Shown: positions 9,957 to 26,378 of the stretch, in pieces
Numbering within the stretch: the stretch's first letter is position 1
How the letters are laid out: every line of letters starts with the position of its first letter
Source of the DNA: Pseudoxanthomonas sp. Root65
GTDB lineage: Bacteria > Pseudomonadota > Gammaproteobacteria > Xanthomonadales > Xanthomonadaceae
NCBI RefSeq assembly: GCF_001427635.1
Contig: NZ_LMHA01000003.1
Coordinates: 124,001 to 188,000, forward strand
Reading direction: 5' to 3'
DNA: 64,000 nucleotides
Made by a program: the position numbers and the translations under genes
Notes under the pieces: generated by a model
Databases searched by the model: none
What the model saw: the letters and a program-made list of their open reading frames with translations, nothing else
What the model was told of the DNA's origin: nothing

Positions 9957-11360
9957 TCAGACCCAACCGGTGGCGTAGAACACGCCGATCACCACGAAGA
10001 CCGCCGCGGTCTTGATCAGGGTGATGGCGAAGATGTCCTTGTACGACTGCCGGTGACTGAGGCCTGTGACCGCCAGCAGGGTGATGACCGCCCCATTGTG
10101 GGGCAGGGTGTCCATGCCGCCGGAGGCCATGGAGGCCACGCGGTGCAGCACGTCCATCGGGATGCCGGCCGCGTTGGCGTTGGCGATGAAGCTGTCCGCC
10201 ATCGCCGCCAGCGCGATGCTCATGCCACCCGAGGCCGAGCCGGTGATGCCCGCCAGCGCGGTGACCGAGATGGCTTCGTTGACCAGCGGATCGGGAATGG
10301 CCTGCAGCGCGTTGGCCACCACCAGGAAGCCGGGCAGGGCGGCGATGACTGCGCCGAAGCCGTATTCCGACGCGGTGTTCATCGACGCCAGCAGCGCGCC
10401 GCCGATGGCGCTCTTCGTACCCTCGGCGAAGCTGGCGAACACCGGCTTCCACGCGAACAGGATGACCGCGGCGATGCCCACCAGCAGCGCGCCCTGCACG
10501 GCCCAGATGGCGGCGACCTTGGCCACGTCCTGAACCACCGGCGCCGGGCTGCCGATCACCGCCGGCACGAACGACTGCGTTTCGCCGTAGAACCCCGGGA
10601 TCCAGCGGGTGAACAGGAAGTTGGCCACGCCCACAAGCAGCAGCGGCAGGATGGCGACCAGCGGATGCGCCAGCCGGTCGCCCTTGAACGGCTCGGGCTC
10701 GTTGCGCAGCTCGTCGTTGCCGGCGTAGCCCTCGCCGTTGCGCGCGGCCACGCGGCGGCGCCATTCCAGGTAGCTCATGCCGACGATCAGGATGAACACG
10801 CCGCCGAGCGTGCCCAGCACCGGCGCGGCCCAGCCGGTGGTGCCGAAGAACGAGGTGGGGATGATGTTCTGGATCTGCGGCGTGCCCGGCAGCGCATCCA
10901 TGGTGAAGGTGAAGGCGCCCAGCGCGATGGTGCCCGGCACCAGTCGCTTGGGGATGTTGCTCTGGCGGAACAGCTCGGCGGCGAACGGATACACCGCAAA
11001 TACCACCACGAACAGCGACACGCCGCCGTAGGTCAGCAGCGCGCAGACCAGCACGATCGACAGCATGGCGCGCTGCGCACCGACCACCTTGATGGTGGCG
11101 GCGACGATCGCCTTGGAGAAACCGGAGATCTCGATCAGCTTGCCGAACACCGCACCCAGCAGGAACACCGGGAAATACAGCTTGAGGAAGCCGACCATCT
11201 TGTCCATGAACAGGCCGGTGAACATGGGCGCAACCAGCGAGGGATCGGTCAGCAGCACCGCGCCGAGGGCCGCGATGGGCGCGAACAGGATGACGCTGTA
11301 GCCGCGGTAGGCCACGAACATCAGGAAGCACAGCGCGGCCAGCACGATCAGGAACGACAT
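9957..11360 (-). CDS. GntP-family permease, probable D-3-hydroxybutyrate transporter
   Basis: A 467-residue inner-membrane protein with about a dozen hydrophobic segments and the typical GntP N-terminus (short hydrophobic helix, then YRGYSVILFAPIAAL). The family transports gluconate and other hydroxy acids, including D-3-hydroxybutyrate in bdhA-linked members. The 3HB dehydrogenase and 3HB-oligomer hydrolase further along, and a 16-bp motif shared between their promoters, argue for 3HB here. That assignment is inference. The start at 11360 follows GAGGAG at good spacing; the frame to 11492 is a non-protein-like extension. It is divergent from the TonB receptor. Confidence 0.85.
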   Translation of the reverse strand: MSFLIVLAALCFLMFVAYRGYSVILFAPIAALGAVLLTDPSLVAPMFTGLFMDKMVGFLKLYFPVFLLGAVFGKLIEISGFSKAIVAATIKVVGAQRAMLSIVLVCALLTYGGVSLFVVVFAVYPFAAELFRQSNIPKRLVPGTIALGAFTFTMDALPGTPQIQNIIPTSFFGTTGWAAPVLGTLGGVFILIVGMSYLEWRRRVAARNGEGYAGNDELRNEPEPFKGDRLAHPLVAILPLLLVGVANFLFTRWIPGFYGETQSFVPAVIGSPAPVVQDVAKVAAIWAVQGALLVGIAAVILFAWKPVFASFAEGTKSAIGGALLASMNTASEYGFGAVIAALPGFLVVANALQAIPDPLVNEAISVTALAGITGSASGGMSIALAAMADSFIANANAAGIPMDVLHRVASMASGGMDTLPHNGAVITLLAVTGLSHRQSYKDIFAITLIKTAAVFVVIGVFYATGWV

Positions 11361-11430
11361 CCAGCACTCCTCGGCCAAGCGCCGGTTTCGGTGCGGCGAG
11401 TATCGGCAGCGGCCCGGTGCCCGGCCCACT

Positions 11431-11446
11431 GTACGAAGGTACGATG
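11431..11446 (+). promoter_or_regulatory. Putative regulator-binding motif shared with the 3HB dehydrogenase/hydrolase promoter
   Basis: The sequence GTACGAAGGTACGATG lies between the divergent GntP permease and TonB receptor genes, 70 bp and 84 bp from the two start codons. Near-identical GTACCAAAGTACGATG lies at 21111-21126 in the divergent bdhA/oligomer hydrolase region. GTAC repeats with a 4-base spacer give partial dyad symmetry. The nearby LuxR-type regulator is the natural candidate to bind it (inference). Confidence 0.55.
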
Positions 11447-11530
11447 CCGCCCGCGCGGCCCCGGCCCTAGTGTTCGCTGCAATCGGCGGCATCCGTCCGC
11501 CGCTCTGTCATACCCGGGAGGGGGAGACCC

Positions 11531-13750
11531 ATGAAGCGCAAGCACCTGAGCCTGGCCATCGGCTGTGTCCTGTTGTCGTCCATGCCGCTGGCGTGGGCGC
11601 AGGACGCCGCAACGACCGCCAGCGCGCCCGCCACCAACGCCACCACGCTCGATTCGGTCAAGGTGACCGCGCGCAAGCGCGAGGAAACCCTGCAGGACGT
11701 GCCGGTCGCGGTCACCGCCTTCACGCCGGAGACGCTGGACAAGCTCAACATCAAGGACCTGGGCGACCTGGACGCGCAGGTGCCCAACCTGACCGTCTAC
11801 GCCGCGCGCGGCTCGACCAGCACGGTGACCGCCTACATCCGCGGCGTGGGACAGGCCGATCCGCTGTGGGGCGTGGACCCGGGCGTGGGCATTTACCTGG
11901 ACGACGTGTACATCGCGCGTCCGCAGGGCGCGCTGCTGGACGTGTTCGACGTGGAGCGCATCGAAGTGCTGCGCGGCCCGCAGGGCACGCTGTACGGCAA
12001 GAACACCATCGGTGGCGCGATCAAGTACATTTCGCGCGGCCTGCCGCAGGAGACCACCGGCTTCGCCTCGGTCACCGTGGGCAACTACAACCAGCTGGAC
12101 GTCAAGGCGGCGCTGGGCGGCGAGATCGGCGGCAAGGACAGCGGCCTGCGCGGCCGCGTGTCGGTGGCGAGCATGAACCGCGACGGTTTCGGCACCAACA
12201 CCTTCACTGGCCAGGAAGTCAGCGACAAGGAAATCAACGCCGTGCGCATGCAGCTGGGTGCGTATTCGCAGGACGATTTCGACGTGCAGATCGCGTTCGA
12301 CTACATGGACGACCAATCCGGCGTGCGTGGCGCGAAGATGCTGGCGCCGAACCCGCTGGCCCCGACCTATCCGCCGACCGACGACCGCTACGACATCCGC
12401 AGCGGCATGAAGAACATCAACGACACCGAGATGAAGGGCGCCTCGGTTACCGCCAACTGGCGGCCGAGCGAGAACTGGGCATTCAAGTACGTGGCCGCCA
12501 AGCGCGAGTCCGACACCGAGACCAACATCGACTTCGACACCACGCCACGTCCACTGGTCGACGTGCGCGCGTTCTACAGCGACAGCCAGGTCAGCCAGGA
12601 ATTCCAGGCCAACTACGATGGCGGCGGTCGCGCGCGCGGCGTGATGGGCCTGTACTGGTTCAACGGCGACGCCGGCGGCCAGGTGCTGAACTACTTCTGG
12701 AATCCGCTGCTGGCCACCGGTCTGACCAACCCCTTGTTCGGCGATACCCAGGGCGTGGTCAATACCAAGAGCATCGCGCTGTACGCGGACTGGACCTTCG
12801 ACCTGACCGACCGGCTGAAGCTGGACGTCGGCGCGCGCTACACCGACGAGGACAAGCACGCGGTCGCGCTGAACCGCTTCTACACCAGCACCCAGTACGA
12901 CACCTCGTGGGGCACGGCGGCGAACTTCGACAAGACGGTGAACTTCAAGAACGTCTCGCCGAAGGTCTCGCTGGACTACCAGGTCACCCCGGACATCATG
13001 ATCTACGGCCTGGCCTCGCGCGGCTTCAAGTCGGGTGGCTACAACATCCGCGCCAACACCACCGCGGTGCCGCGCTCGGGCGAGCCGTTCGACGACGAGC
13101 AGGTCGACAGCTTCGAGATCGGCAGCAAGATGTCGTTCCTCGACCAGCGCATGTTCCTGAACCTGTCCGCGTTCCACAACAAGTACGAGGACATCCAGCT
13201 GTCGGTGTTCACCTCGTACACGCTGCCGAACGGTTCGCAGAGCTTCTTCGGCGACTTCACCAACGCCGGCAAGGGGACGGTCAACGGCGTGGAAGTGGAG
13301 TACCAGTTCCTGCCGACGGCCAACTGGCTGATCAGCGGCAACCTGGCCTGGCTGGACGCGAAGTACGACGAGTTCATCAGCAGCGGCGTCAACATCGCCG
13401 ACACGCAGTACTTCACCAATGCGCCGGAGTTCTCGGGTGCGCTGAACGTGGAATACCGCACCGACCTGGCCAGCGGCGGCAACCTGTCGGCGCGCGTGGG
13501 CTACTCCTACCAGTCGGAGGTGTGGCCGACGACCGACCTGAGCCCGGTGATCAAGCAGGAAGGCTACGGGCTGGTCAACGCCGGCGTGATCTGGAAGGTC
13601 AACGACGCTTGGAGCCTGTCGCTGCAGGGCACCAACCTGGCCGACGAGGAATACCGCACCACCGGCTACAACATCGCCGCCTACGGCGTGCTGACCGGCT
13701 TCTACGGTCCGCCGCGCCAGTACAGCCTGACCGCGCGCTACGACTTCTGA
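11531..13750 (+). CDS. TonB-dependent receptor
   Basis: A 739-residue outer-membrane receptor. It has a Sec signal peptide ending LAWAQ, a plug domain (about residues 40-170) with the typical VLRGPQGTLYGKNTIGGAI motif, a beta-barrel for the rest, and a terminal aromatic residue (ARYDF) as used for barrel assembly. A clear GGAGGGGGAG precedes the ATG. Family members import iron complexes, sugars or other nutrients; the substrate is not readable. Its place in the 3HB locus, with the shared motif in its promoter, suggests a hydroxybutyrate-related compound such as oligomers. It is transcribed toward the hybrid kinase 111 bp downstream. Confidence 0.93.
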   Translation: MKRKHLSLAIGCVLLSSMPLAWAQDAATTASAPATNATTLDSVKVTARKREETLQDVPVAVTAFTPETLDKLNIKDLGDLDAQVPNLTVYAARGSTSTVTAYIRGVGQADPLWGVDPGVGIYLDDVYIARPQGALLDVFDVERIEVLRGPQGTLYGKNTIGGAIKYISRGLPQETTGFASVTVGNYNQLDVKAALGGEIGGKDSGLRGRVSVASMNRDGFGTNTFTGQEVSDKEINAVRMQLGAYSQDDFDVQIAFDYMDDQSGVRGAKMLAPNPLAPTYPPTDDRYDIRSGMKNINDTEMKGASVTANWRPSENWAFKYVAAKRESDTETNIDFDTTPRPLVDVRAFYSDSQVSQEFQANYDGGGRARGVMGLYWFNGDAGGQVLNYFWNPLLATGLTNPLFGDTQGVVNTKSIALYADWTFDLTDRLKLDVGARYTDEDKHAVALNRFYTSTQYDTSWGTAANFDKTVNFKNVSPKVSLDYQVTPDIMIYGLASRGFKSGGYNIRANTTAVPRSGEPFDDEQVDSFEIGSKMSFLDQRMFLNLSAFHNKYEDIQLSVFTSYTLPNGSQSFFGDFTNAGKGTVNGVEVEYQFLPTANWLISGNLAWLDAKYDEFISSGVNIADTQYFTNAPEFSGALNVEYRTDLASGGNLSARVGYSYQSEVWPTTDLSPVIKQEGYGLVNAGVIWKVNDAWSLSLQGTNLADEEYRTTGYNIAAYGVLTGFYGPPRQYSLTARYDF

Positions 13751-13861
13751 GGACGCGCAAGGTAACGATGCGGGAACGGCAGCGCCGGGCGAAAGCCCGC
13801 CGTTGCTGCGTTATGCTCGCCGCATGCCACGCCATGCGCACCACGCCGGGGAAATGACGGG

Positions 13862-16800
13862 ATGCTGAGCGTCGGCATGGTGGTGCTGGCCGGGCTGCTG
13901 TGGCTGGGCGTGCTGTTCGGCACGGCGCTGTATGCCGAGCGTCGGCCGCACGTGCTGGCGGTGCAATGGCCGTACATCTATGCGCTGTCGCTGGCGGTGT
14001 ACTGCACCTCATGGACGTTCTTCGGCACGGTGACGCAGGCGGCGCGCTATGGCTGGCCGCTGCCGCCGACCTTCGTGGGCACCATCCTGCTGTACGTGTT
14101 CGGTGCGTTCCTGCTGGTGCGGCTGGTGCGGCTGGCACGCGAGTCGAATGCGACCTCGCTGGCGGACCTGATCGCCACGCGGCTGGGCAAGGACGGCTGG
14201 CTGGCCGCGACGGTGACCCTGGTCGCCGCGCTGGGGCTGATTCCCTACATCGCGCTGCAGCTGAAAGCGGTGGCGATGAGTTTCGCGCTGCTCACGCGTT
14301 CGCCCGGCAATGACGCCTTGCCGGCGTGGCAGGACAGCGCGTTGTACGTGGCGCTGGCGATGGCGGTGTTCGCCATGTTGTTCGGCACGCGCCGCGCGAG
14401 TGCGGTGGAGCACAACCGCGGGCTGATCCTGGCGATGGCGTTCGAGTCGCTGTTCAAGCTGGCGGCGATGCTGGCGCTGGGGCTGTTCGTCTGGTTCGGA
14501 TTGCCGGACCTGCCGCCGGCGCCGCCGGTGCCCTCGGCACCGCCGTCCACCACCTACGGGTTCCTGCCGCTGGTGGCACTGGGCGTGCTGGCGATGTTCA
14601 CCCTGCCGCACCAGGTGCACGTGGGGGTGGTGGAATGCCGCGACGAGCGCCACGTGCGCACCGCGCGCTGGCTGTTCCCGCTGTACATGGTGCTGATGGC
14701 CGCGCCGCTGCTGCCGCTGGCGCGGGCGGGCGGGGCGATGTTCGGCGATGCCGTACCGTCCGATCTTTACGTGCTGGCGCTGCCGCTGTCGCAGGGTCAT
14801 CAGGGCCTCGCGTTGCTGGCCTTCCTCGGCGGCCTGAGCGCGGCCACCGGCATGGTGGTGGTCAGCACGCTGACGCTCAGCCTGATGATCGGCAACCACT
14901 GGTTGGCGCCCGGCCTGCTGCGCGGCGGCTGGCTGCGCGGCCGCGGCGGCGACCTGCGGGGTGCGGTGCTGGCCCAACGCCGCGTCGGCATCGTGGCGGT
15001 GATGCTGCTGGCGTGGGCGTACAGCCGGCTGGTCGCCGGCAACGACGCGCTGGCCGACGTGGGCGCGGTGTCGTTCTCGGCGCTGGCCACACTGGCACCG
15101 GCGCTGGGGTTTGCGATCTGGCGTCCGCAAACGCCGCCGCGCGCGGTGATCGCCGGCATCGTCGCCGCATTCGCCGTCTGGATGTGGCTGCTGCTGTTGC
15201 CGGTGGCGATGGATGCGCGCGGCGTGGCGCCGGCGTGGTTGCAGAGTGGTCCGTTCGGTCTGGCCAGCCTGTCGCCGGATGGCTTCTTCGGTCTGACCGG
15301 CTGGAGCCGGTTGGGTCGGGCGGTCGGCGTCAGTCTGTTCCTCGGCACCGCAGTGACGTTCCTGGTGACGGGCTGGCACGGCAGCGCGCCGCGCCGCGCC
15401 GACAGCCGTGGTTTCGATGCGAAGACGCTGCGCGACGCCGGCCGTCGCTTCCTCTCGCGCGAACGCGTGGAGGAACTGCTGTCCGATGCGCCCCGCAGCG
15501 GCCCGGTTCCGGCACCCATCGAGGCACGGCTGGAGCGCGAACTGGCGGCGGTGCTGGGTTCGGCCTCGGCGCGCCTGCTGCTGGATGCCGCGCGCCGCGA
15601 GAGCGGCGACCTGGAAACCGTGGCCGCCATCGTCGGCGAGGTTTCGCAGGACCTTCGCTTCAACCAGCAGGTGCTGGAGGCCGCGCTGCAGAACATGAGC
15701 CAGGGCATCAGCGTGATCGACCGCGATCAGCGCCTGGTGGCCTGGAACCGGCGCTACGCGCAGATGTTCGGCTTCCCGCCGGAGGTCTTGCAGGTGGGGC
15801 GGCCGATCGCCGACCTGACCCGCTGGGCGCTGCAGCGCATGCCGCAACGCGGGTGGGACGAGCGTGCCCTGGAACGGCGGCTGGCCTTCATGCGCGCGGG
15901 CACGCCACACCTGACCGAGCGCGTCTTTCCCGACGGCAGCATCGTGGAGATCCGCGGCAATCCGATGCCGGGCGGCGGCTTCGTCGCCACCTATACCGAC
16001 GTCACCGCGTCGCGGCAGGCCGAGCGCGAACTGAAGCAGGCCAACGAGACGCTGGAACAGCGGGTGGTCGAGCGCACGGCGCTGCTGGAGCATGCCAAGC
16101 GCGAAGCCGAGCACGCGAACGATGCCAAGAGCCGCTTCCTGACCGCGATTGGCCACGATCTACTGCAGCCGCTGCACGCGGCGCAACTGTTCACCGATGC
16201 GCTGGCGCAGCAGCTGCCGGAGCCGCGCCAGCGCGAAACCGCGTTGCAGGTGCGCGGCGCGCTGGATTCCACCACCGACCTGCTGACCGGCTTGCTGGAC
16301 ATGTCGCGGCTGGAAGCGGGCGGCCTGTTGCCGGAACCGCGCGACCTGCCCTTGATGGAAGTGCTGGAACCGCTGGCCTCCGAGTTCCGCGTGCTGGCGC
16401 ACGAGCGCGGCCTGTCGTTCGCCATGGTGCCGACGCGGGCGTGGGTGCATACCGATCCGCAACTGCTGCGGCGCATCCTGCAGAACTTCCTCGCCAACGC
16501 CGTGCGCTATACCGCGCGCGGTGGTGTGCGGCTGGGCGTGCGGCGCATCGGTGAGCGCTTGCGCGTGGAGGTATGGGACACCGGCCCGGGCATCGCGCAG
16601 GCCGACCAGCAGCGGATCTTCGAGGAGTTCCGGCGCGGCGACGATGTGCCGGGGCAGGGGTTGGGGCTCGGACTGTCGATCGCGGACCGCATCGCCACGC
16701 TGCTGGACGCGCCGTTGTCGCTGCGCAGCCGGGTGGGGCGCGGCGCCGTCTTCGCGGTCGATCTGCCGCGGGCGACCGCACCCGTCGCCGCGCCGGTGGC

Positions 16801-17191
16801 GTTCGGCAAGCCGGGCCTCGCCGGTCGCCATGTGCTGGCAGTCGACAACGATCCCGTTGCGCTGTCCGCCTTGCAGCAGGTGCTCGAAGGGTGGGGATGT
16901 CGCGTCGCCACCGCCCGGGACAGCGTCGCCGCAGAAGACGCGTTGCGTGCACAGGCGGCCGACCTGTGGCTGTTCGATTACCACCTGGATGCTGGCGATA
17001 CGGGCGTTGCGATGGCCCAGCGTCTGCGTGCCACGCGTGGCCACCGCCCCTGCCTGATCCTCAGCGCCGACCAGACCGAAGCGGTCCGCCGCGCCGTGCG
17101 CGATGCCGAACTGCCGCTGCTGGCCAAGCCCGTGCGGCCGCTGGCGCTGAAGTCGGTGCTGGACCGGATGCTGGCGGCGCGAACGATGTAG
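13862..17191 (+). CDS. SSS-type hybrid sensor histidine kinase (CrbS/MxtR-like)
   Basis: A 1109-residue protein. Roughly residues 1-500 are a sodium:solute-symporter-like membrane module. A PAS domain follows at about 610-720, a HisKA domain with His765 in GHDLLQPLH, a HATPase domain with DTGPGI and a GLGLGL box, and a C-terminal receiver (about 995-1109) with phospho-acceptor Asp1039 and the conserved Lys in AKPV. This architecture is that of CrbS/MxtR kinases, which pair with LuxR-type regulators controlling acetate and short-chain carbon use. The matching regulator is probably the 19526-20188 gene. The symporter module may sense or transport the substrate. Which ligand it senses is inference. 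Confidence 0.9.
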   Translation: MLSVGMVVLAGLLWLGVLFGTALYAERRPHVLAVQWPYIYALSLAVYCTSWTFFGTVTQAARYGWPLPPTFVGTILLYVFGAFLLVRLVRLARESNATSLADLIATRLGKDGWLAATVTLVAALGLIPYIALQLKAVAMSFALLTRSPGNDALPAWQDSALYVALAMAVFAMLFGTRRASAVEHNRGLILAMAFESLFKLAAMLALGLFVWFGLPDLPPAPPVPSAPPSTTYGFLPLVALGVLAMFTLPHQVHVGVVECRDERHVRTARWLFPLYMVLMAAPLLPLARAGGAMFGDAVPSDLYVLALPLSQGHQGLALLAFLGGLSAATGMVVVSTLTLSLMIGNHWLAPGLLRGGWLRGRGGDLRGAVLAQRRVGIVAVMLLAWAYSRLVAGNDALADVGAVSFSALATLAPALGFAIWRPQTPPRAVIAGIVAAFAVWMWLLLLPVAMDARGVAPAWLQSGPFGLASLSPDGFFGLTGWSRLGRAVGVSLFLGTAVTFLVTGWHGSAPRRADSRGFDAKTLRDAGRRFLSRERVEELLSDAPRSGPVPAPIEARLERELAAVLGSASARLLLDAARRESGDLETVAAIVGEVSQDLRFNQQVLEAALQNMSQGISVIDRDQRLVAWNRRYAQMFGFPPEVLQVGRPIADLTRWALQRMPQRGWDERALERRLAFMRAGTPHLTERVFPDGSIVEIRGNPMPGGGFVATYTDVTASRQAERELKQANETLEQRVVERTALLEHAKREAEHANDAKSRFLTAIGHDLLQPLHAAQLFTDALAQQLPEPRQRETALQVRGALDSTTDLLTGLLDMSRLEAGGLLPEPRDLPLMEVLEPLASEFRVLAHERGLSFAMVPTRAWVHTDPQLLRRILQNFLANAVRYTARGGVRLGVRRIGERLRVEVWDTGPGIAQADQQRIFEEFRRGDDVPGQGLGLGLSIADRIATLLDAPLSLRSRVGRGAVFAVDLPRATAPVAAPVAFGKPGLAGRHVLAVDNDPVALSALQQVLEGWGCRVATARDSVAAEDALRAQAADLWLFDYHLDAGDTGVAMAQRLRATRGHRPCLILSADQTEAVRRAVRDAELPLLAKPVRPLALKSVLDRMLAARTM

Positions 17192-17199
17192 CCGCCATC

Positions 17200-17622
17200 G
17201 TCGTCCCAGCGAACGCTGGGACCCATCTTGCTCTTGCTTCGTAGCATTCCAGCGCCTTGTATCAGATCCGACGCAGAGCAACCGCAAAAGCGCAAATGGA
17301 TCCCAGCGTGCGCTGGGATGACGTCCTGGAGGGATGAGTGGTCTCGTCGTCCCAGCGAACGCTGGGACCCATCTTGCTCTTGCTTCGTAGCATTCCAGCG
17401 CGTTGGATCAAATCCGACGCAGAGCAACCGCAAGAAGCGCAAATGGATCCCAGCGTGCGCTGGGATGACGTCCTCGAGGGGCGGAAGAAGTTCCGTCATC
17501 CCGGCGAAAGCCGGGCCGCAGCGACTCGATTTCCAGGATTCGTGGTTGCTCAGAAAGCACTGGGTCCCGGCTTGACCCGCCCTCCGGCGGTTGAATGCCG
17601 CCGGGATGACGGCGTGAGTGGG
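17200..17622. repeat. Three intergenic hairpin repeats (two type A, one type B)
   Basis: This 464-bp gap between the kinase and the NUDIX gene is filled by two copies (17200-17335 and 17345-17480) of an element with outer hairpins GTCCCAGCGAACGCTGGGAC and ATCCCAGCGTGCGCTGGGAT. One copy (17500-17622) of an element starting CGTCATCCCGGCGAAAGCC follows. The same elements recur in the array at 18625-19517. No ORF in the gap looks like a protein. Confidence 0.85.
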
Positions 17623-17655
17623 TAGAATCCGCGCTTCGCCGCAGAAGGTTCTTCC

Positions 17656-18144
17656 ATGCCCTACACCCCCATCGTCGCCACCCTCGGTTACGTGCTGTCG
17701 CCCGATCGTTCGCAGGTGCTGCTGATCCATCGCAATGCGCGCCCGGACGACCAGCACCTGGGCAAGTACAACGGCCTGGGTGGCAAGATCGAGCGCGACG
17801 AGGACGTGGTGGCCGGCATGCGGCGCGAGATCCTGGAGGAGGCCGGCATCACCTGCGACGAGATGCGCCTGCGCGGCACCATCAGCTGGCCGGGCTTCGG
17901 CAAGAACGGCGAGGACTGGCTGGGTTTCCTCTTCGTGGTCACGGCCTACAGCGGCACGCCGTTCGAGCGCAATCCCGAGGGCACGCTTGAGTGGGTGCCG
18001 GTGGAGAAGATCATGGACCTGCCGTTGTGGGACGGCGACCGCCACTTCCTGCCGCTGGTGTTCGACGCCGATCCGCGCGGCTTCCACGGCGTCATGCCGT
18101 ACCGCGATGGCCGCATGGTGTCGTGGGATTATTCGCGCATCTGA
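17656..18144 (+). CDS. NUDIX hydrolase (8-oxo-dGTP diphosphatase type)
   Basis: A 162-residue protein with a perfect Nudix box: GGKIERDE, seven residues, then REILEEAGI, matching G-x5-E-x7-REU-x-EE-x-GU. The start at 17656 directly gives the first strand (YTPIVATLGYVLS). Such proteins hydrolyse a nucleoside diphosphate linked to another group; length and box fit an MTH1/MutT-like oxidised-nucleotide hydrolase, but the substrate is inferred. It stands between repeat clusters and is not obviously in an operon. Confidence 0.9.
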   Translation: MPYTPIVATLGYVLSPDRSQVLLIHRNARPDDQHLGKYNGLGGKIERDEDVVAGMRREILEEAGITCDEMRLRGTISWPGFGKNGEDWLGFLFVVTAYSGTPFERNPEGTLEWVPVEKIMDLPLWDGDRHFLPLVFDADPRGFHGVMPYRDGRMVSWDYSRI

Positions 18145-18162
18145 AGGCCGCGTGCTGGACCC

Positions 18163-18314
18163 TGTAGGAGCGACGTCAGTCGCGACCGCGGACCGCGGAC
18201 TTCGGATCCTTATCCATGGAGGACCTTGACCGGGGAAACAACTCTCTGGCGATCCTGCCTGGCGAAAGCGACAGGATCGCCTCGTATCCCGGTCGCGACT
18301 GACGTCGCTCCTGC
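18163..18314. repeat. REP-like inverted repeat doublet (GTAGGAGCGACGTCAGTCGCGAC)
   Basis: TGTAGGAGCGACGTCAGTCG at the left is matched in inverted orientation by CGACTGACGTCGCTCCTGCA at the right, with about 100 bp between. Two further doublets of the family lie at 23035-23142 and 26398-26530. Arms starting GTAG/GTGG and internally palindromic are typical of REP-type elements in xanthomonads and pseudomonads. Confidence 0.8.
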
Positions 18315-18340
18315 ACCAGGCCGCCTTGTGTTCCACGGCT

Positions 18341-18592
18341 GACGCTTGTCCACACGCCATGTGGAGAGCGCGTGGGAAACCGTGTGGATAACCGCGCCGG
18401 CGCCTTGTGTCGCAAGCCTGTCAAGATGTGTGGCGAATTTTTGACCAGGCCATGACGATGCGGTGTCCGGGTTGTCCACACCGGGTGTGGATGGTCTGTC
18501 GACCAACATGTGGATAAGCATCTGCACGCGTTGCGGCGCAAGGCTGTCAAGATGGGTGGCGAAATTATGATCATCGCCGATGGCGGTCTCAC
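18341..18592. other. Duplicated 126-bp module with DnaA-box-like sites
   Basis: TTGTCCACA occurs at 18346 and 18472, and TGTGGATAA (reverse of the perfect DnaA box TTATCCACA) at 18383 and 18509. Both pairs are exactly 126 bp apart. In each module the TTGTCCACA is followed after 4-5 bases by an inverted TGTGGA, and the TGTGGATAA is followed by a conserved tail, CTGTCAAGATGNGTGGCGAA. No coding frame is supported. This may be a DnaA-binding site or an unknown RNA; neither can be decided by eye. Confidence 0.6.
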
Positions 18593-18624
18593 GGCAATGA
18601 AGGTTTCACGCAATGGCGGTGTTC

Positions 18625-19517
18625 CGTCATCCCCGCGGTTTTCAACCGCCGAATGGCGGATCAAGCCGGCACCCAGCGACGTGCAGCACTCTCAAGCATG
18701 GGAAGCGAAAGACACTGGGTCCCGGCCTGCGCCGGGATGACGGTTCCCGCACCGCCGTCCCAGCGAACGCTGGGACCCATCTTGCTCTTGATTCGTAGCA
18801 TTCCAGCGCGTCTTATCCGATCCGACGCAGAGCAACCGCAAAAGCGCAAATGGATCCCAGCGTGCGCTGGGATGACGTCCTCGAGGGTGAGAAGTAGTGC
18901 CGTCATCCCGGCGAAAGCCGGGACCCAGCGACATGTAGCGCTCGCAAGCATGGAAAGCCAAAGACACTGGGTGCCGGCCTGCGCCGGGATGACGAATCCC
19001 GCGCCGTCGTCCCAGCGAAGGCTGGGACCCATTTTGATCTTGTTTGGTACACGTCCGACTCAGAGCAAACGCAAAAGCGCAAATGGATCCCAGCGTGCAC
19101 AGGGATGACCTCCTCGAGGGTGAGAAGTAGTGCCGTCATCCCGGCGAAAGCCGGGACCCAGCGACGTGTAGCGCTCGCAAGCATGGAAAGCCGAAGACAC
19201 TGGGTGCCGGCCTGCGCCGGGATGACGATTCCCCAGCCGTCGTCCCAGCGAACGCTGGGACCCATCTTGCTCTTGCTTCTTAGCATTCCAGTGCGTCGTA
19301 TCAGATCCGACGCAGAGCAACCGCAAAAGCGCAAATGGATCCCAGCGTGCGCTGGGATGACGTCCTCGAGGGCGAGAAGTAGTGCCGTCATCCCGGCGAA
19401 CGCCGGGACCCAGCGACTTGCATCGCTCTCGAGCATGGGAAGCGAAAGACACTGGGTCCTGGCTTGCGCAGGGATGACGGTTGCCGCGCCGCCGTCCCGG
19501 CCTGCGCCGGGATGACG
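18625..19517. repeat. Composite tandem array of type A and type B hairpin repeats
   Basis: The array reads B-A-B-A-B-A-B. Type A elements start near 18750, 19006 and 19240; type B elements lie at 18625-18742, 18900-18995, 19134-19229 and 19385-19516. The A elements contain CCAGCGAACGCTGG, and the B elements contain ATCCCGGCGAAAGCCGGGA and end CTGCGCCGGGATGACG. The ORFs crossing it repeat the same peptide (for example WIPACAGMTSS) and are artefacts of the repeats. It abuts the stop codon of the response regulator. Confidence 0.88.
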
Positions 19518-19525
19518 ATCCGGGC

Positions 19526-20188
19526 TTACTCGATCTGCCGTGCAGGATCCGCCAGTTCCAGTTCGCGCAACACGACGCCGGCCTGGGTTCGGTTGCGCAC
19601 GCCGAGGCGGTCGAAGATCGCGGAGAGATGGGCTTTCACGGTGCGCTCCTGCACGTCGAGGCGGTCGGCGATCTGCTTGTTCAGCAGGCCCTGCGCCACC
19701 AGCGTCAGTACGCGGAACTGTTGCGGCGACAGGCTGGCCAGGCGAGCGGCCAGGTCGGTGTCGTGCGCGGAGGACTGCGAACGGGCGACCGCACCGCGCA
19801 AGGAGGCGGGCAGCCATTGTTCGCAAGCGAGCACGCTACGGATCGCATCGCGCAGCTCATCCAGCCCCGAACTCTTCGGCAGGTAACCGGCGGCGCCATG
19901 GTCCAGCGCACGGCGCACCACGCGCGGGTCGTCGTTCGCCGACACCACCGCCACCGCGACCGCGGGGAACTGCGCGCGGATCGCCGCCAGTCCCGCCAGC
20001 CCGTGGTTGCCGGGCATGTGCAGGTCGAGCAGGACCAGGTCGATGTCGTCGTGCGCTTCCAGCGTGGCGATTACGCCGTCCAGTGATTCGGCCTCGCGCA
20101 CTGTCAGCTGCGCCACGGCATCCGCAGCGGCCCCGCGCAGGGCGGCGCGGAACAGCGGATGGTCATCGGCGATCAGCAGGTTAGGCAT
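19526..20188 (-). CDS. LuxR-family response regulator (CrbR/ErdR-like)
   Basis: A 220-residue two-domain regulator. The N-terminal receiver (about 1-120) has an acidic DDHP start, phospho-acceptor Asp in VLLDLHMPG and a conserved Lys in LPKSS. The C-terminal LuxR helix-turn-helix (about 150-215) has LLNKQIADRLDVQERTVKAH. The start at 20188 gives the canonical receiver N-terminus MPNLLIADDHP; the frame upstream to 20266 is low-complexity. It most likely receives phosphate from the hybrid kinase at 13862-17191 (inference from family pairing). It lies downstream of bdhA on the same strand, 100 bp away. Confidence 0.9.
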   Translation of the reverse strand: MPNLLIADDHPLFRAALRGAAADAVAQLTVREAESLDGVIATLEAHDDIDLVLLDLHMPGNHGLAGLAAIRAQFPAVAVAVVSANDDPRVVRRALDHGAAGYLPKSSGLDELRDAIRSVLACEQWLPASLRGAVARSQSSAHDTDLAARLASLSPQQFRVLTLVAQGLLNKQIADRLDVQERTVKAHLSAIFDRLGVRNRTQAGVVLRELELADPARQIE

Positions 20189-20288
20189 CAGGTGAGGCGT
20201 GAGTGGGGAGAAGTGAGGAGTGAGGAAAGGCCACCGCGAGGAGCTGGGCTTTGGCTCACTCCTCACTCCTCTCCACTATCCACTCGCC

Positions 20289-21056
20289 TCATTGCACGGT
20301 CCAGCCACCATCCACCACGATGGTCTGGCCGGTGATGTTGCGGGCGGCGGGCGAGGTGAGGAAGGCGGTGATGCCGGCCAGTTCGTCCAGGCCGATGAAC
20401 ACGCCCTTCGGCATCGGCTTCAGCATCACCTGGCTGACCACGTCGACCTCGGAGATGCCGCGCGTGCGCGCCTGGTCGGCGATCTGCTTGTCGACCAGCG
20501 GGGTCTTCACGTAGCTGGGACAGACCGTGTTGATGGTGATGTCGGTGTCGGCGGTTTCCAGCGCCAGTACCTTGGAGAAGCCGACCAGACCGTGCTTCGC
20601 GGCGACGTAGGCGCTCTTGTACGGACTGGCGACCAGGGCGTGGATGCTGCCGATGTTGACGATGCGGCCGAAGCCGCGCTCGCGCATGCCGGGCAGCACC
20701 GCGCGGGTCAGTCGGGCCACGCCGACCAGCATCACCTGCACCAGGAAGTCCCACTTCTCGATCGGGAAGTCCTCCAGCGGCGAGACGTGCTGCAGGCCGG
20801 CGTTGTTGACCAGTACGTCGATCGGCCGCGAGATCGTGGCCAGTGCGGCCTCGATGCTGTCCTGCGAAGTGACGTCCAGGGCGACCGCCTCGGCGGAGCC
20901 GCCTTCAGTGCGGATCTGCGTGGCGACCGCTTCGGCCGCCTCGAAGTTGAGGTCGCTGACGATCACGTGGCGACCGGCTTCGGCGAGCTGCGCGGCGATG
21001 CCAGCGCCGATGCCGCTGGCCGCGCCGGTGATGAGGAGGGTGTGGGTGGGCTGCAT
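20289..21056 (-). CDS. bdhA: 3-hydroxybutyrate dehydrogenase
   Basis: A 255-residue classical short-chain dehydrogenase. It has the cofactor motif TGAASGIG at residues 10-17, NNAG near 90, and the catalytic Ser-Tyr-Lys set in GSIHALVASPYKSAYVAAK. Length and the segment NTVCPSYVKTPLVDKQI fit D-3-hydroxybutyrate dehydrogenase, which oxidises D-3HB to acetoacetate with NAD. The neighbouring 3HB-oligomer hydrolase would supply its substrate. The two genes are divergent and share a 132-bp region containing the GTACCAAAGTACGATG motif. Cytoplasmic. Confidence 0.93.
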   Translation of the reverse strand: MQPTHTLLITGAASGIGAGIAAQLAEAGRHVIVSDLNFEAAEAVATQIRTEGGSAEAVALDVTSQDSIEAALATISRPIDVLVNNAGLQHVSPLEDFPIEKWDFLVQVMLVGVARLTRAVLPGMRERGFGRIVNIGSIHALVASPYKSAYVAAKHGLVGFSKVLALETADTDITINTVCPSYVKTPLVDKQIADQARTRGISEVDVVSQVMLKPMPKGVFIGLDELAGITAFLTSPAARNITGQTIVVDGGWTVQ

Positions 21057-21110
21057 GGGGAACTCCTGCGTGTCGTCGCTAGGGTAGCAGGCAGGCGCGC
21101 GCGCTTCGTG

Positions 21111-21126
21111 GTACCAAAGTACGATG
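21111..21126 (+). promoter_or_regulatory. Putative regulator-binding motif (second copy)
   Basis: GTACCAAAGTACGATG differs from the copy at 11431-11446 at only two positions and lies in the same kind of place: between two divergent genes of 3HB metabolism, 54 bp from bdhA and 62 bp from the hydrolase start. No third copy was found by eye in the window. Confidence 0.55.
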
Positions 21127-21188
21127 ACGGCGCTTCTCGCGAAGCGTAGTTTCGTGGCATTGACCGGAACCCTGGATGCTTTTCACGC

Positions 21189-23024
21189 ATGAACGCGAAG
21201 ACGCGCATTGCCTGTGGTGTGTTGCTCGGCGCGGCCCTGGCGGCCTGCAGCAGCGCCCCCTCCAAGCCTGAAGCGGTGGCCCACATGATCCAGCCCCAGC
21301 GCGTCACCGAGCACCGTGGCAGCGACGACCTGCTCACCGCCGGCCTGGGCCTGGACGGCCTGCGGGCGATGGCGGCGCCCGCGTTCGCCGACCCGGCCAA
21401 CCCGACCCCGGCCGAACTGCGCCGCCGCGCGGTCTGGGCGAACTGGCGCGGCATCGCCGATCTGTCGCTGACCGGCGGCTACGGTCAGGCCTATGGCAGC
21501 GTGGCCAGCGTGCCGGGACGCGAGTATTCCGCACTGGCGAAAGTGCCGGGTGCGTCCCAGCCGCATCGCGTGCTGGTGCAGGTGCCTGACAATTTCGACA
21601 CCACCAAGCGCTGTGTCGTCGTCACCGCCTCGTCCGGTTCGCGTGGTGTTTACGGCGCCATCGCCGTGGCGGCGCCCTGGGCGCTGCCGAAGGGGTGCGC
21701 GGTCGCCTACACCGACAAGGGCGCGGGCACCGATTACTTCGATCTGGATGAGCAGCGTGGCGCGCGCGAGGACGGCACGGTCGGCGAACTGGGTGTCGAC
21801 ACGCTCGCTTTCGTGCCCGACGCACCGGTCGGCGCCAGTGGCGTGGCGGTCAAGCACGCGCATTCCAAGGACAATCCGGAAGCGGACTGGGGCCGGCACG
21901 TGAAGCAGGCCGCCGAGTTTGCGCTGGCGTCGCTCGACCATGCCTTTCCGCAGGCCGCGCCGTTCCGCTTCGACAACACCCGCGTGATCGCCGTGGGCAT
22001 TTCCAATGGCGGCGGCGCGGTGCTGCGTGCCAGCGAAGAGGAGGGCGGCTGGCTGGACGCGGTGGTCGCCGGCGAGCCCAACATCCATGCGGCCGATGCG
22101 CCGGGGGCGCGCTCGCTGTACGACTACACCACCGAAGCCGCCTTGCTGATGCCGTGCGCGCTGCTGGACCTGCCGGCGGATGCGCTGCCGCAGCCGCCGC
22201 TTCGCGCGCAGGTCGAACCGCTGTGGGTGGCGCGCTGCGCCACGTTGAAAGCGGCCGGCCTGGTGACCGGCGCGGATGCGAAGGCGCAGGCGGCATCGGC
22301 GCGTTCGCAGTTAAAGGCGAACGGCTGGACCGACGAAGCGCTGGTGGCCGGCGCGCTCAGCGTCGGCTTCGACCTGTGGCGCGCGGTCGCGGTGACATAC
22401 GCCTCCGCGTACGGACGCTACGGCGTGGGCGAGCATCCGTGCGGCTTTGCGTTCTCGGCGCAGGACGCCGATTTCAGCGCACGCGCCGCCAGTGCCGCCG
22501 AGCGCGCCGCATGGTGGTCCGAGGGCAGCGGGATTCCGCCGGGGGCCGGGGTCGGTATCGTCGACATGAAGCTCGCCGCGCCGGACTTCACCCTGCCGGG
22601 CCTGCAGTGCCTGCGCGCGCTGCAGACCGGCAGCAGCGACGATGCACGCCGGGTGCAGGCCGGCATCGCGCAGACCGCGGCGCGCTTCCCGAAGACGCGC
22701 CGCCCGGTGGTGGTGATCCATGGTCTGGACGATGGACTGGTGCCGCCGGCCTTCTCCAGCGCGCCCTACGTGGAGGCCGCACGCGCCGCCAACCCCGACG
22801 TGCGCTACTGGCAGGTGCGGCATGCGCAGCACTTCGATGGCTTCCTTGCGCTGCCGGCGTACGGCACGCGCTATGTGCCATTGCTCCCCTATGTCTACGC
22901 GGCGCTGGACCAGGTCGATGCCACGCTGGATGGCAGCCGCGAGCTGCCGGCGAATGCGTTGATCAGTGCGCAGCCGCGGGGCGCGGGCAGCGTTGAGGCC
23001 AGCCAGTTGGCGATTCCGAGGTAG
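21189..23024 (+). CDS. 3-hydroxybutyrate oligomer hydrolase, lipoprotein form
   Basis: A 611-residue protein of the D-(-)-3-hydroxybutyrate oligomer hydrolase family, which cleaves 3HB dimers and oligomers to the monomer. The nucleophile motif is GISNG with Ser272. The C-terminal half has VIHGLDDGLVPP and RHAQHFDGF, giving candidate Asp and His of a triad. The N-terminus is a lipoprotein signal (LGAALAACSS), so it is probably lipid-anchored in the envelope and acts on imported or external oligomers. That fits a TonB receptor taking up oligomers. The ribosome binding site is weak. It is divergent from bdhA. Confidence 0.9.
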   Translation: MNAKTRIACGVLLGAALAACSSAPSKPEAVAHMIQPQRVTEHRGSDDLLTAGLGLDGLRAMAAPAFADPANPTPAELRRRAVWANWRGIADLSLTGGYGQAYGSVASVPGREYSALAKVPGASQPHRVLVQVPDNFDTTKRCVVVTASSGSRGVYGAIAVAAPWALPKGCAVAYTDKGAGTDYFDLDEQRGAREDGTVGELGVDTLAFVPDAPVGASGVAVKHAHSKDNPEADWGRHVKQAAEFALASLDHAFPQAAPFRFDNTRVIAVGISNGGGAVLRASEEEGGWLDAVVAGEPNIHAADAPGARSLYDYTTEAALLMPCALLDLPADALPQPPLRAQVEPLWVARCATLKAAGLVTGADAKAQAASARSQLKANGWTDEALVAGALSVGFDLWRAVAVTYASAYGRYGVGEHPCGFAFSAQDADFSARAASAAERAAWWSEGSGIPPGAGVGIVDMKLAAPDFTLPGLQCLRALQTGSSDDARRVQAGIAQTAARFPKTRRPVVVIHGLDDGLVPPAFSSAPYVEAARAANPDVRYWQVRHAQHFDGFLALPAYGTRYVPLLPYVYAALDQVDATLDGSRELPANALISAQPRGAGSVEASQLAIPR

Positions 23025-23907: not shown

Positions 23908-25311
23908 ATGGCAAATTCCGTTCCACCGTGGCCGGGCGATTTCGAATCGGTGGCCCAGCAGTACTGGAGTCTGTGGGGCGATGCCCTGCGGCAGTCCGGC
24001 GCAACGCCGACGATGGCCATGCCGGGCGTGGCCCCGGGCTGGCAGCAGACGGTCGACTGGTGGTCGAAGCTGGTGCCCGGCGGGCAGCCGCAGGTCGACG
24101 AGGCCGTCGGCCGGTTCCAGCGACAGGCAGGGCAGTGGTTCGGGCAGATGCAGCAGGTCGCCGCGCAGTTCACCGGCCGCGACCATGACGCCACCGACAT
24201 CGGTCGCGCCTGGCGTTCGGCGCTGGGCATGGCCGAACCCACCCCGGCGCACAACCCGTTCGCCGACATCTTCCGCAGCATGCAGGGCGGCGCGCACGGC
24301 ATGGACGGCTGGATGCAGCAGGTGCGCCCCTGGCTGGACAACCTGCAGCGCGACGGCGACCGCTGGATGCACCTGCCCACGTTCGGCCTGTCGCGCGAGC
24401 ACCAGGAGCGCTGGCAGCAACTGGCGCAGGCCTACCAGGACTACCAGCGACAGGTCGGCGAGTACGACCAGCTGATGCTGCAGGTGGCGCAGGATGCGTT
24501 TGCGCGCTTCGAGCGCAAGCTGGAGGAACACGCCGAACCCGGCCGCCAGCTGCAGAACGCCCGCGCGCTGTTCGACCTCTGGATCGATGCGGCCGAAGAA
24601 GCCTACGCACAGGTGGCGATGTCCAACGACTTCCGCCATGCCTACGGTGGCCTGGCCAACGCGCAGGCGCGGTTGCGCCTCGGCGTGCAGCGCGAGGTCG
24701 AACAGGTCTGCACGCTGTTCGGCATGCCGACCCGCACCGAAGTCGACTCCGCCCACCGCAAGGTCGTCGAACTGGAACGCGCACTGCGCAAGCTGACGCG
24801 TGCGCAGCAGTCGGCCCCCGTGCGCCGCGCGCCCGTCCAGCGGCAACCCGCACCTGCCGACGCTCCGGTTGCCGCGGAAGCCCCGCCGCCGGCTCCGGCG
24901 GCCGCAACGCCGAAGCCGGCCAGGAAGCGCGCGCCGGCCCGGCGCAAGCCGGCGCCAGCGCCCAAGGCCGCAGCGAAGAAGCGTGCCGCCGCCACGAAAG
25001 CGGCACCGAAGAAGCGGGCTCGCCGCGCCGTGGCCGCAGCTGCGCCAGTGGCGACAAGAACGGCGCGTGCGCCGGTGGCGACTGGCAAGGCCGCCGCACC
25101 TGCCAAGGCGAAGAAGCGCGCTGCCAAGGCGCTGCCGAAGGCGCCGGTGACGAAGAAAGCAGCCAAGAAGCTTGCGCCCGCATCGAGCGCGAAGCCCGCG
25201 CCTGGCTCGGTGGTATCGATGAAGGACTGGGTGGCACGCAACGCGACGCGCGCGGCCACCGCGGACAAGCCGAAGGCAGGCAAGAAGGCCAAGCGGGGTA
25301 GCGGCAAATGA
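23908..25311 (+). CDS. phaE: Class III PHA synthase subunit PhaE with histone-like basic tail
   Basis: A 467-residue protein. About residues 1-290 match PhaE, the non-catalytic partner of class III PHA synthase (MANSVPPWPGDFESVAQQYW at the start, helical middle). From about residue 300 it continues as a Pro/Ala/Lys/Arg-rich tail with KKRAAATKAAPKKRARRA-type repeats. This resembles histone H1 and the tails of the DNA-binding PHB proteins PhaF and PhaM. A strong GGGAAGGGAGGG precedes the ATG. Its stop overlaps the phaC start (ATGA), so the two are coupled. Confidence 0.92.
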   Translation: MANSVPPWPGDFESVAQQYWSLWGDALRQSGATPTMAMPGVAPGWQQTVDWWSKLVPGGQPQVDEAVGRFQRQAGQWFGQMQQVAAQFTGRDHDATDIGRAWRSALGMAEPTPAHNPFADIFRSMQGGAHGMDGWMQQVRPWLDNLQRDGDRWMHLPTFGLSREHQERWQQLAQAYQDYQRQVGEYDQLMLQVAQDAFARFERKLEEHAEPGRQLQNARALFDLWIDAAEEAYAQVAMSNDFRHAYGGLANAQARLRLGVQREVEQVCTLFGMPTRTEVDSAHRKVVELERALRKLTRAQQSAPVRRAPVQRQPAPADAPVAAEAPPPAPAAATPKPARKRAPARRKPAPAPKAAAKKRAAATKAAPKKRARRAVAAAAPVATRTARAPVATGKAAAPAKAKKRAAKALPKAPVTKKAAKKLAPASSAKPAPGSVVSMKDWVARNATRAATADKPKAGKKAKRGSGK

Positions 25312-26378
25312 ACGGGCCGCTCAACTTCACCGCCGAAGCACTGGCCCACGAGGCCACCACGCTGACGCAGAAGCTCTCCGCCGGCCTGCACACGCTGCCG
25401 GAGGTCGAGGAGGTGCACTACGGCGCCACGCCGAAGCAGGAAGTCTGGCGCGACGGCAAGGTGGTGCTGTACCGCTTCATCGGCGAGAAGGCGCCGACGG
25501 CGAAAATCCCGCTGCTGATCGTCTACGCGCTGGTCAACCGGCCGTACATGGTGGACCTGCAGCACGACCGCTCGCTGGTGAAGGGCCTGCTGGCGCAGGG
25601 CGAAGATGTCTACGTCATCGACTGGGGCTACCCCGACCGGTCCGACCGCTTCCTCGAACTGGACGACTACATCAACCGCTTCATCGACGGCGCAGTGGAC
25701 CACCTGCGCGACAGCAGCGGCCGCGACGCGGTCAACGTGCTGGGCATCTGCCAGGGCGGCGCGTTCTCGCTGTGCTACGCCTCGCTGCACCCGGAGAAGG
25801 TCAAGAACCTGATCACCATGGTGACGCCGGTGGATTTCCACACGCCGGACAACATGCTCTCGCACTGGACGCGCGAGCTGGACGTGGACCTGTTCGTCGA
25901 TGCGCTGGGCAACGTGCCGGCCGACATGATGAATGCCTGTTACCTGATGCTGAAGCCGTTCCGGCTGAACCTGCAGAAGTACGTGGGGCTGGTCGACATC
26001 CTGGACGACAAGCGTGCCATCGAGGATTTCCTGCGTATGGAGAAGTGGATCTTCGACTCTCCGGACCTGGCAGGCGAAGCCTTCCGCCAGTTCATCAAGC
26101 AGTTCTACCAGCGCAACGGCTTCATCAAGGGCGGCATCGAGATCGGCGGCGAAGCGGTGGACCTGGGTTTCGTCGACATGCCGGTGCTGAACATCTACGC
26201 CGAACAGGACCACCTGGTGCCGCCGGATGCCTCGCGCGCGCTGAAGGACGTGGTTGGCACCGCCGACTACACCGAGCTGAGCTTCAAGGGTGGCCATATC
26301 GGCATCTACGTGTCCAGCCGTGCGCAGCGCGAAGTGCCGACGGCGATCCATCACTGGCTGGGGCAACGCGCGCGGTAG
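25308..26378 (+). CDS. phaC: Class III polyhydroxyalkanoate synthase catalytic subunit PhaC
   Basis: A 356-residue alpha/beta hydrolase-fold synthase, the usual length for class III. The lipase-like box is GICQGG with catalytic Cys148; Asp301 (EQDHLVPP) and His330 (FKGGHIG) complete the triad, almost the numbering of the Allochromatium enzyme. With PhaE it polymerises 3-hydroxybutyryl-CoA into PHB at granule surfaces. Its start overlaps the phaE stop by four bases. No phaA or phaB is in the window. Confidence 0.96.
   Translation: MNGPLNFTAEALAHEATTLTQKLSAGLHTLPEVEEVHYGATPKQEVWRDGKVVLYRFIGEKAPTAKIPLLIVYALVNRPYMVDLQHDRSLVKGLLAQGEDVYVIDWGYPDRSDRFLELDDYINRFIDGAVDHLRDSSGRDAVNVLGICQGGAFSLCYASLHPEKVKNLITMVTPVDFHTPDNMLSHWTRELDVDLFVDALGNVPADMMNACYLMLKPFRLNLQKYVGLVDILDDKRAIEDFLRMEKWIFDSPDLAGEAFRQFIKQFYQRNGFIKGGIEIGGEAVDLGFVDMPVLNIYAEQDHLVPPDASRALKDVVGTADYTELSFKGGHIGIYVSSRAQREVPTAIHHWLGQRAR

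Follow-up and report, generated by a model that had tools for sequence, protein, structure and literature searches.

A conserved palindromic motif linked to a CrbS/CrbR-paralogous two-component system at a 3-hydroxybutyrate-oligomer locus of Pseudoxanthomonas sp. Root65

Introduction

Are the genes for the uptake, cleavage and oxidation of 3-hydroxybutyrate (3HB) oligomers under common control when they lie together in one genome, and if so, what reads the control site? This question arises in a 64,000-nucleotide stretch of the Pseudoxanthomonas sp. Root65 genome (positions 124,001 to 188,000 of contig NZ_LMHA01000003.1, assembly GCF_001427635.1; hereafter the window), in which a preliminary description had noticed one 16-bp motif in two divergent promoter regions, between a GntP-like permease and a TonB-dependent receptor and between a 3HB dehydrogenase and a 3HB-oligomer hydrolase, and had proposed a compact 3HB regulon. 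Here we argue, with a probability of roughly 0.8, that the motif serves as operator for a dedicated two-component system, paralogous to CrbS/CrbR, which activates the use of 3HB oligomers. This reading draws on the conservation and placement of the motif, its spacing from promoter elements, its co-occurrence with a linked regulator, the kinship of an adjacent kinase and a different site type at acs. The proposal of a regulon is itself well supported by placement, conservation and regulator co-occurrence, from which we infer binding and co-regulation.

In a literature search that largely covered papers outside subscription journals, we found no earlier description of a 3HB regulon of this kind, judging by titles among the matches listed; the kind of system is known, while within this search the target set and the operator code had no precedent. 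If correct, our reading assigns a regulator, an operator and a class of signal to a conserved 3HB-oligomer scavenging cluster, and connects both the TonB receptor and the GntP-like permease with polyester oligomers through shared regulation, beyond mere neighbourhood. It would also extend the SLC5/STAC kinases by a branch linked to 3HB, the members described in the available text of the papers cited below serving acetate, pyruvate and histidine, and would provide a natural case of paralogous regulators dividing a DNA code, with two residues and a few bases involved.

Results

Two sites in the window and in the genome

The 16-mers at 11431-11446 and 21111-21126 lie on one strand and differ at two positions, as first reported, and the earlier distance range of 54-84 bp is likewise correct, the gaps to the start codons being 70 bp (GntP-like permease), 84 bp (TonB receptor), 54 bp (3HB dehydrogenase) and 62 bp (oligomer hydrolase). 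The pair also proved to be the only one in the 64 kb, with no third copy at up to two mismatches. Two additional matches appear at three mismatches, giving four matches at up to three mismatches against a shuffle mean of 0.61, a comparison that proves little alone because the pattern was built from both sites themselves. Across the 3.89-Mb genome the 16-mer has two sites at up to one mismatch and one more at two mismatches, so that it is not scattered as a dispersed element would be; the two-mismatch match (G000:C1:1115752) did not convince on inspection and was discarded. A genome-wide scan with the composite pattern GTACGATG-N19-22-TAnnnT recovered both window sites and no further match.

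The 16-bp repeat is real, but the conserved unit is wider than first described: it includes outer arms of partial symmetry and, at a fixed distance, a -10 element. Extended in this way, operator 1 (11427-11446) is the imperfect palindrome CACT-GTAC-GAAG-GTACGATG, located between the permease and receptor genes, and operator 2 (21107-21126) is the imperfect palindrome CGTG-GTAC-CAAA-GTACGATG, located between the dehydrogenase and hydrolase genes.

Conservation across the family

Of 149 genomes of the family, 96 contain the motif with no more than one mismatch, compared with 6 for a reversed-pattern control. Conservation in orthologous loci of related genera is strong, and the lack of conservation that the preliminary description had named as telling against its proposal did not occur. 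The regions compared comprised 20 kb surrounding the regulator in each of 77 genomes, plus further stretches. In 97 of the 98 loci with a usable hydrolase match (the exception being L125), the motif at up to two mismatches precedes the hydrolase gene and lies on its strand. When only loci chosen by the regulator are considered (leaving out 11 loci picked by motif match as well as the window), the motif precedes the hydrolase in 85 of 86, versus 1 of 3650 shuffles of the 77-genome set; together with the family-wide conservation, this rules out a chance repeat. Intergenic regions between GntP-like and receptor genes carry the motif at up to two mismatches in 27 loci, and among 53 divergent GntP-like/receptor pairs the best site exceeds 95% of composition-preserving shuffles in 49. 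A common variant at these pairs reads GTCC-GAAG-GTAC followed by AG in place of CGATG. Although searches on the hydrolase and receptor sides were restricted to sites facing the hydrolase or receptor, orientation was unchanged in site listings made without this restriction.

Among eight more distant loci (named records), four carry GGAC-TTTC-GTAC-GATG on the hydrolase strand and two the GTACGAAAGTAC version, with nothing clear as an operator in the other two. We also inspected 11 loci with matches away from the 3HB locus. Two of these matches (L137, L138) precede a relocated 3HB dehydrogenase and one (L143) precedes a hydrolase gene, while L139, L140, L142, L146, L147, L148 and L174, the last from the Root65 genome itself, have untyped neighbours and were judged by eye to be chance matches. 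At L141 (genome G032) a one-mismatch operator with a damaged -10 element lies near a 3HB-dehydrogenase-like gene, the hydrolase and regulator being absent there; this operator is an apparent relic of an old 3HB locus. In other families of the same order, genome G159 carries a pair of one-mismatch sites (C13:49407 and 59260) separated by 9.85 kb, as in the window, and G150 has a single one-mismatch site (C1:126119) together with two SLC5-type kinases of 54% and 41% identity.

Operator anatomy and promoter spacing

The core of the operator is a GTAC-N4-GTAC inverted repeat. Its pairs 0/11 and 3/8 are symmetrical in every one of the 27 receptor sites and in no fewer than 93 of the 97 hydrolase sites; for pair 1/10 the counts are 26 receptor and 81 hydrolase sites. 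Pair 2/9 is symmetrical in all 97 hydrolase sites and in only 6 of the 27 receptor sites, most of which read GTCC. Symmetry extends into the outer arms at pairs -2/13 (76 hydrolase and 16 receptor sites) and -4/15 (49 and 26), and the operator of L169 is a near-perfect palindrome, CATCGTAC-CTAA-GTACGACG.

Facing the hydrolase, TAnnnT lies exactly 30.5 bp from the operator centre in 81 of 97 loci, with the extended form TGnTAnnnT in 61; the TAnnnT spacing count in the spacer was 0 of 1455. On the opposite side of the same site TAnnnT is placed at 30.5 bp (34 loci) or 31.5 bp (15), and in 21 loci it lies one turn of the helix farther out, at 41.5-42.5 bp. On the receptor side it occurs at 31.5 bp in 22 of the 27 loci with a site at up to two mismatches, and at 30.5-32.5 bp in 49 of the 53 divergent pairs. 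For the window the distances come to 30.5 bp in both directions at site 2 and to 31.5 and 32.5 bp at site 1. The predicted -10 elements are TAGTTT for the hydrolase (21147-21152, plus strand), the extended TGCTACCCT for the dehydrogenase-regulator genes (21081-21089, minus strand) and TAGTGT for the receptor (11468-11473, plus strand), whereas the permease has only a possible and weak element, GATACT, which is not TAnnnT (11399-11404, minus strand; 32.5 bp).

None of 88 hydrolase promoters has a -35 match of at least 5/6. With the usual start 6-7 bp behind the -10 element, the operator would be centred near -42, the position of a class II activator, and this predicted architecture fits an activator of that class. 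For comparison, the available text of the ACTU paper (PMC5715377) places the ACTU motif in P. fluorescens at -52 to -36. In 65 of 97 hydrolase loci an ATG begins at the expected transcription start, 42.5 bp from the operator centre, so that the hydrolase mRNA in those loci may be leaderless; the ATG of the window hydrolase lies 30 bp beyond this position.

The linked regulator as the likely reader

The best candidate reader of the operator is likely to be the linked LuxR/NarL-type response regulator (19526-20188, minus strand; Pfam Response_reg and GerE), a paralog of CrbR/ErdR. The preliminary description placed a LuxR-type gene next to the second site; such a gene is indeed nearby, but it follows the dehydrogenase gene, on the same strand, at a distance of 922 bp from the site. 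The motif is present in 93 of 106 genomes with this regulator class and in 3 of 43 without it (Fisher p 2e-21, kinship ignored), and the presence of the regulator varies inside 11 genera. The three matches without the regulator comprise the relic in G032 and two (G030, G095) in sequence taken as unrelated, and 10 of the 13 regulator genomes without a motif at up to one mismatch have a two-mismatch site at the locus. In addition, the 21 genomes without a dehydrogenase at the locus each have exactly one elsewhere (at the threshold used), and in 12 of them the region upstream of this relocated gene contains a motif-like site that no more than 3% of shuffles match.

The best NCBIfam model for the window regulator is ErdR (217.8 bits, the curated cut-off of 390 not being reached), and the acs-linked paralog of the same genome is likewise below the cut-off (241.5 bits). 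This second ErdR-like regulator lies directly behind acs and a third is encoded elsewhere (C1:1027408); linkage to acs thus belongs to the other paralog and not to the window regulator. Among 123 aligned regulators of the family, the recognition-helix residue R182 is present in 102 of 102 members of the window class, as is D175, and Q180 in 97, and A182 and S180 are present in 21 of 21 acs-linked regulators. In CrbR-like regulators from outside these families (Pseudomonas, Acinetobacter and others), residues 175, 180 and 182 mostly read YSA, with YTA, WSA and FTA among the few variants.

A paralogous SLC5-type kinase

The preliminary description did not mention the hybrid histidine kinase, the relation to CrbS/CrbR with its ACTU motif, the palindromic symmetry or the constant distance to the promoter. 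The kinase (13862-17191, plus strand), a paralog of CrbS, joins an SLC5-type region to PAS, HisKA and HATPase domains and a C-terminal receiver (Pfam). In a profile of 15 sequences the SLC5 region matches the SLC5-STAC structure of CbrA (PDB 10ED) at 5.8e-102, the match extending to chain residue 533 of 606, and the first structural matches of the AlphaFold model (pLDDT 82) are SLC5 transporters. The Pfam SSF model matched 2 of the 15 kinase-family members, the window kinase not among them.

The genome encodes a second SLC5-type kinase some 10 kb from acs; together with the second regulator, this indicates that two paralogous systems coexist. A kinase that resembles that of the window more closely than the acs-type one does is kept in all 11 tested regulator genomes, even far from the locus, with an identity of 50% in G034 and 65-74% in the other ten, and the four tested family genomes without the regulator have an acs-type kinase only (42-44%). 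Neighbourhood and co-occurrence suggest that kinase and regulator are partners. The kinase gene may be co-expressed after the receptor gene, which ends 111 bp before it.

Related systems in alteromonad-type loci

Ten alteromonad-type loci (named records) combine a CrbR-like regulator with a TonB receptor and an SLC5-type kinase, each of the latter two at 35-40%. GTAC-N4-GTAC precedes the receptor, with TAnnnT exactly 31.5 bp away, in nine of the ten, and no such operator was found in the remaining locus, L262. Among the nine, GntP-like genes are present in six and a 3HB dehydrogenase in three. A third class of recognition helix, QET(T)(I/V)KQH, is shared by eight of these regulators, and the ninth (L272) reads SESTVKQH. 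Identity of these proteins to those of the window is no higher than that of the acetate type, so that a common 3HB origin lacks support.

Discussion

Proposed mechanism

In the model that we propose, the SLC5-type kinase would sense 3HB or a related compound and hand its phosphate to the LuxR-type regulator, a dimer of which would occupy the imperfect palindrome with the core GTAC-N4-GTAC. Bound about 42 bp upstream of the predicted start, where no good -35 element has been kept, the regulator would bring RNA polymerase to the -10 promoters. Operator 1 would drive the outer-membrane receptor and probably the permease, and operator 2 the hydrolase on one side and the dehydrogenase-regulator genes on the other, with positive feedback on the regulator.

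Several observations weigh against this model, most of all at the permease-side promoter, which is its weakest part. TAnnnT occurs at the expected distance on that side in none of 27 loci, a conserved block GAnACT standing there instead, and a left-hand TAnnnT at 30-32 bp is found in none of the nine alteromonad-type loci, so that two-sided control at operator 1 is poorly supported. The kinase gene has no operator of its own. Symmetry of the palindrome is uneven at outer pairs -3/14 (3 of 97 hydrolase and 24 of 27 receptor sites) and -1/12 (22 of 97 and 0 of 27). Four of six -35 bases are present in 15 of 88 hydrolase promoters versus 6.2% of shuffles, the hexamer scored as -35 partly coinciding with fixed motif letters. 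On the side of the regulator, the class that defines the 106 genomes was set by a score threshold picked after seeing a gap in E-values, and clade support, at 0.97 for the 21 acs-linked regulators, is weak (0.50) for the 102 of the window class. The motif at up to one mismatch is missing from 13 of the 106 regulator genomes: ten have the two-mismatch site mentioned above, G034 has a hydrolase without the motif, and in G094 and G110, the latter on a short contig, none was found. The relocated dehydrogenase has no clear site upstream in 9 of 21 genomes, and the pattern that detected the other 12, five of them from one genus, was loosened after two sites were known. In genomes from beyond the family the 16-mer shows no enrichment, occurring in 15 of 196 compared with 25 for the control.

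Relation to known systems

The closest counterpart is CrbS/CrbR (MxtR/ErdR), which in the available text of PMC5715377 and PMC8402216 likewise combines an SLC5-type hybrid kinase with a LuxR-type regulator for the use of a small acid, and whose ACTU motif is, as here, an imperfect palindrome that has an AC-N4-GT core and closely precedes a sigma-70 type promoter (starts predicted). It differs, as far as those texts go, in its targets, which in the window are genes for 3HB uptake, hydrolysis and oxidation with the operators between divergent genes, in its half-sites (GAC/GTC, as opposed to GTAC here) and in its recognition helix (SEATVKAH, as opposed to QERTVKAH here). Moreover, a CrbS/CrbR-like pair near acs is separate from the 3HB pair in the same genome. 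The RpuS/RpuR pyruvate system of Sinorhizobium, so far as described in the available part of PMC9100948, is an SLC5/STAC two-component system that likewise serves a single small acid and has a conserved motif in its promoter, but this motif is an imperfect direct repeat and the target is the mctP operon.

Use of 3HB in Pseudomonas is controlled by HbcR, a sigma-54 type regulator of a 3HB dehydrogenase and a permease. The window instead has a LuxR-type response regulator with -10 promoters, and no enhancer-binding protein is present among the typed neighbouring genes.

Alternative explanations

Kinship with CrbS/CrbR raises the question of whether the site is an ACTU variant read by the acs-linked CrbR, which would place the locus in the acetate regulon and leave the local regulator to act elsewhere. 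The two regulators are 49% identical, and both site types share the core AC-SAAR-GT, taking the ACTU sequences available in PMC5715377. However, the acs promoters speak a different code: of 21 inspected, 19 have GAC-N4-GTC and none GTAC-N4-GTAC, whereas both window sites are GTAC-N4-GTAC and not the KAC-N4-GTC half-sites read from the available ACTU sequences; Table 3 of the same paper, within its accessible text, marks ACTU at acs in four of five Xanthomonas. Recognition helices differ at invariant positions, and of 29 genomes with only the other regulator class (by score) just two have a site at up to one mismatch, one in the old 3HB locus of G032 and one in G030 with no 3HB gene seen nearby. 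We consider this explanation improbable.

Slightly less credible again is repression, in which the palindrome over the -35 region would block polymerase until 3HB is sensed. The operator does overlap the place of the -35 element, where 15 of the 88 hydrolase promoters match four of six bases, but the absence of any match of at least 5/6 among the 88 is what dependence on an activator leads one to expect, and the nearest relative studied, CrbR, works as an activator from the equivalent -52 to -36, according to the available text of PMC5715377. The least probable explanation is that an unlinked transcription factor, global or responsive to carbon source, reads the site while the local two-component genes merely travel along. 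Co-occurrence inside one cluster cannot by itself name the reader, a point that loses force in G022 and G067, which keep a motif-bearing hydrolase, the regulator and the kinase though these lie apart, and in the alteromonad-type loci, where CrbR-like regulators adjoin the same GTAC-N4-GTAC architecture.

Beyond activation by the linked CrbS/CrbR-paralogous system, which we prefer, a broader evolutionary proposal is close to an even call and is put forward tentatively. A branch of SLC5 transceptor kinases would sense 3HB or its oligomers, and its regulators would have been recoded from the acetate-type GAC-N4-GTC to GTAC-N4-GTAC through a few changes in the recognition helix, S180 to Q and A182 to R/T; the architecture is common to Xanthomonadaceae and alteromonad-type bacteria. 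Three regulator classes would thereby serve two operator types without cross-talk, one operator serving two divergent promoters.

Other features of the locus

The oligomer hydrolase (21189-23024, plus strand) matches Pfam 3HBOH at 457.4 bits, and the 3HB dehydrogenase (20289-21056, minus strand) matches TIGR01963 at 354.3 bits, above the cut-off of 307.05. The TonB-dependent receptor (11531-13750, plus strand) has Plug and barrel domains. The GntP-like permease (9957-11360, minus strand), a candidate 3HB transporter, has no Pfam match of its own, although GntP_permease is found in five of nine aligned proteins. For both receptor and permease, gene neighbourhood points to 3HB compounds as the probable ligands.

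Three further loci (L131, L132, L214) have a regulator, kinase and receptor without a hydrolase in the fetched stretch, and a palindromic GTACCTAGGTACGCTG precedes the regulator; the target of these systems may differ. In the window, several families of direct repeats (91-300 nt) at 17199-19534 fill much of the interval between kinase and regulator around a Nudix gene, one family comprising four copies of 135 nt that are up to 96% alike. Just beyond the 3HB locus, at 23908-26378, lie a class III polyhydroxyalkanoate synthase (PhaC; TIGR01836, 558 bits) and a PhaE-like partner, so that polymer synthesis and oligomer scavenging adjoin, as they do in many relatives.

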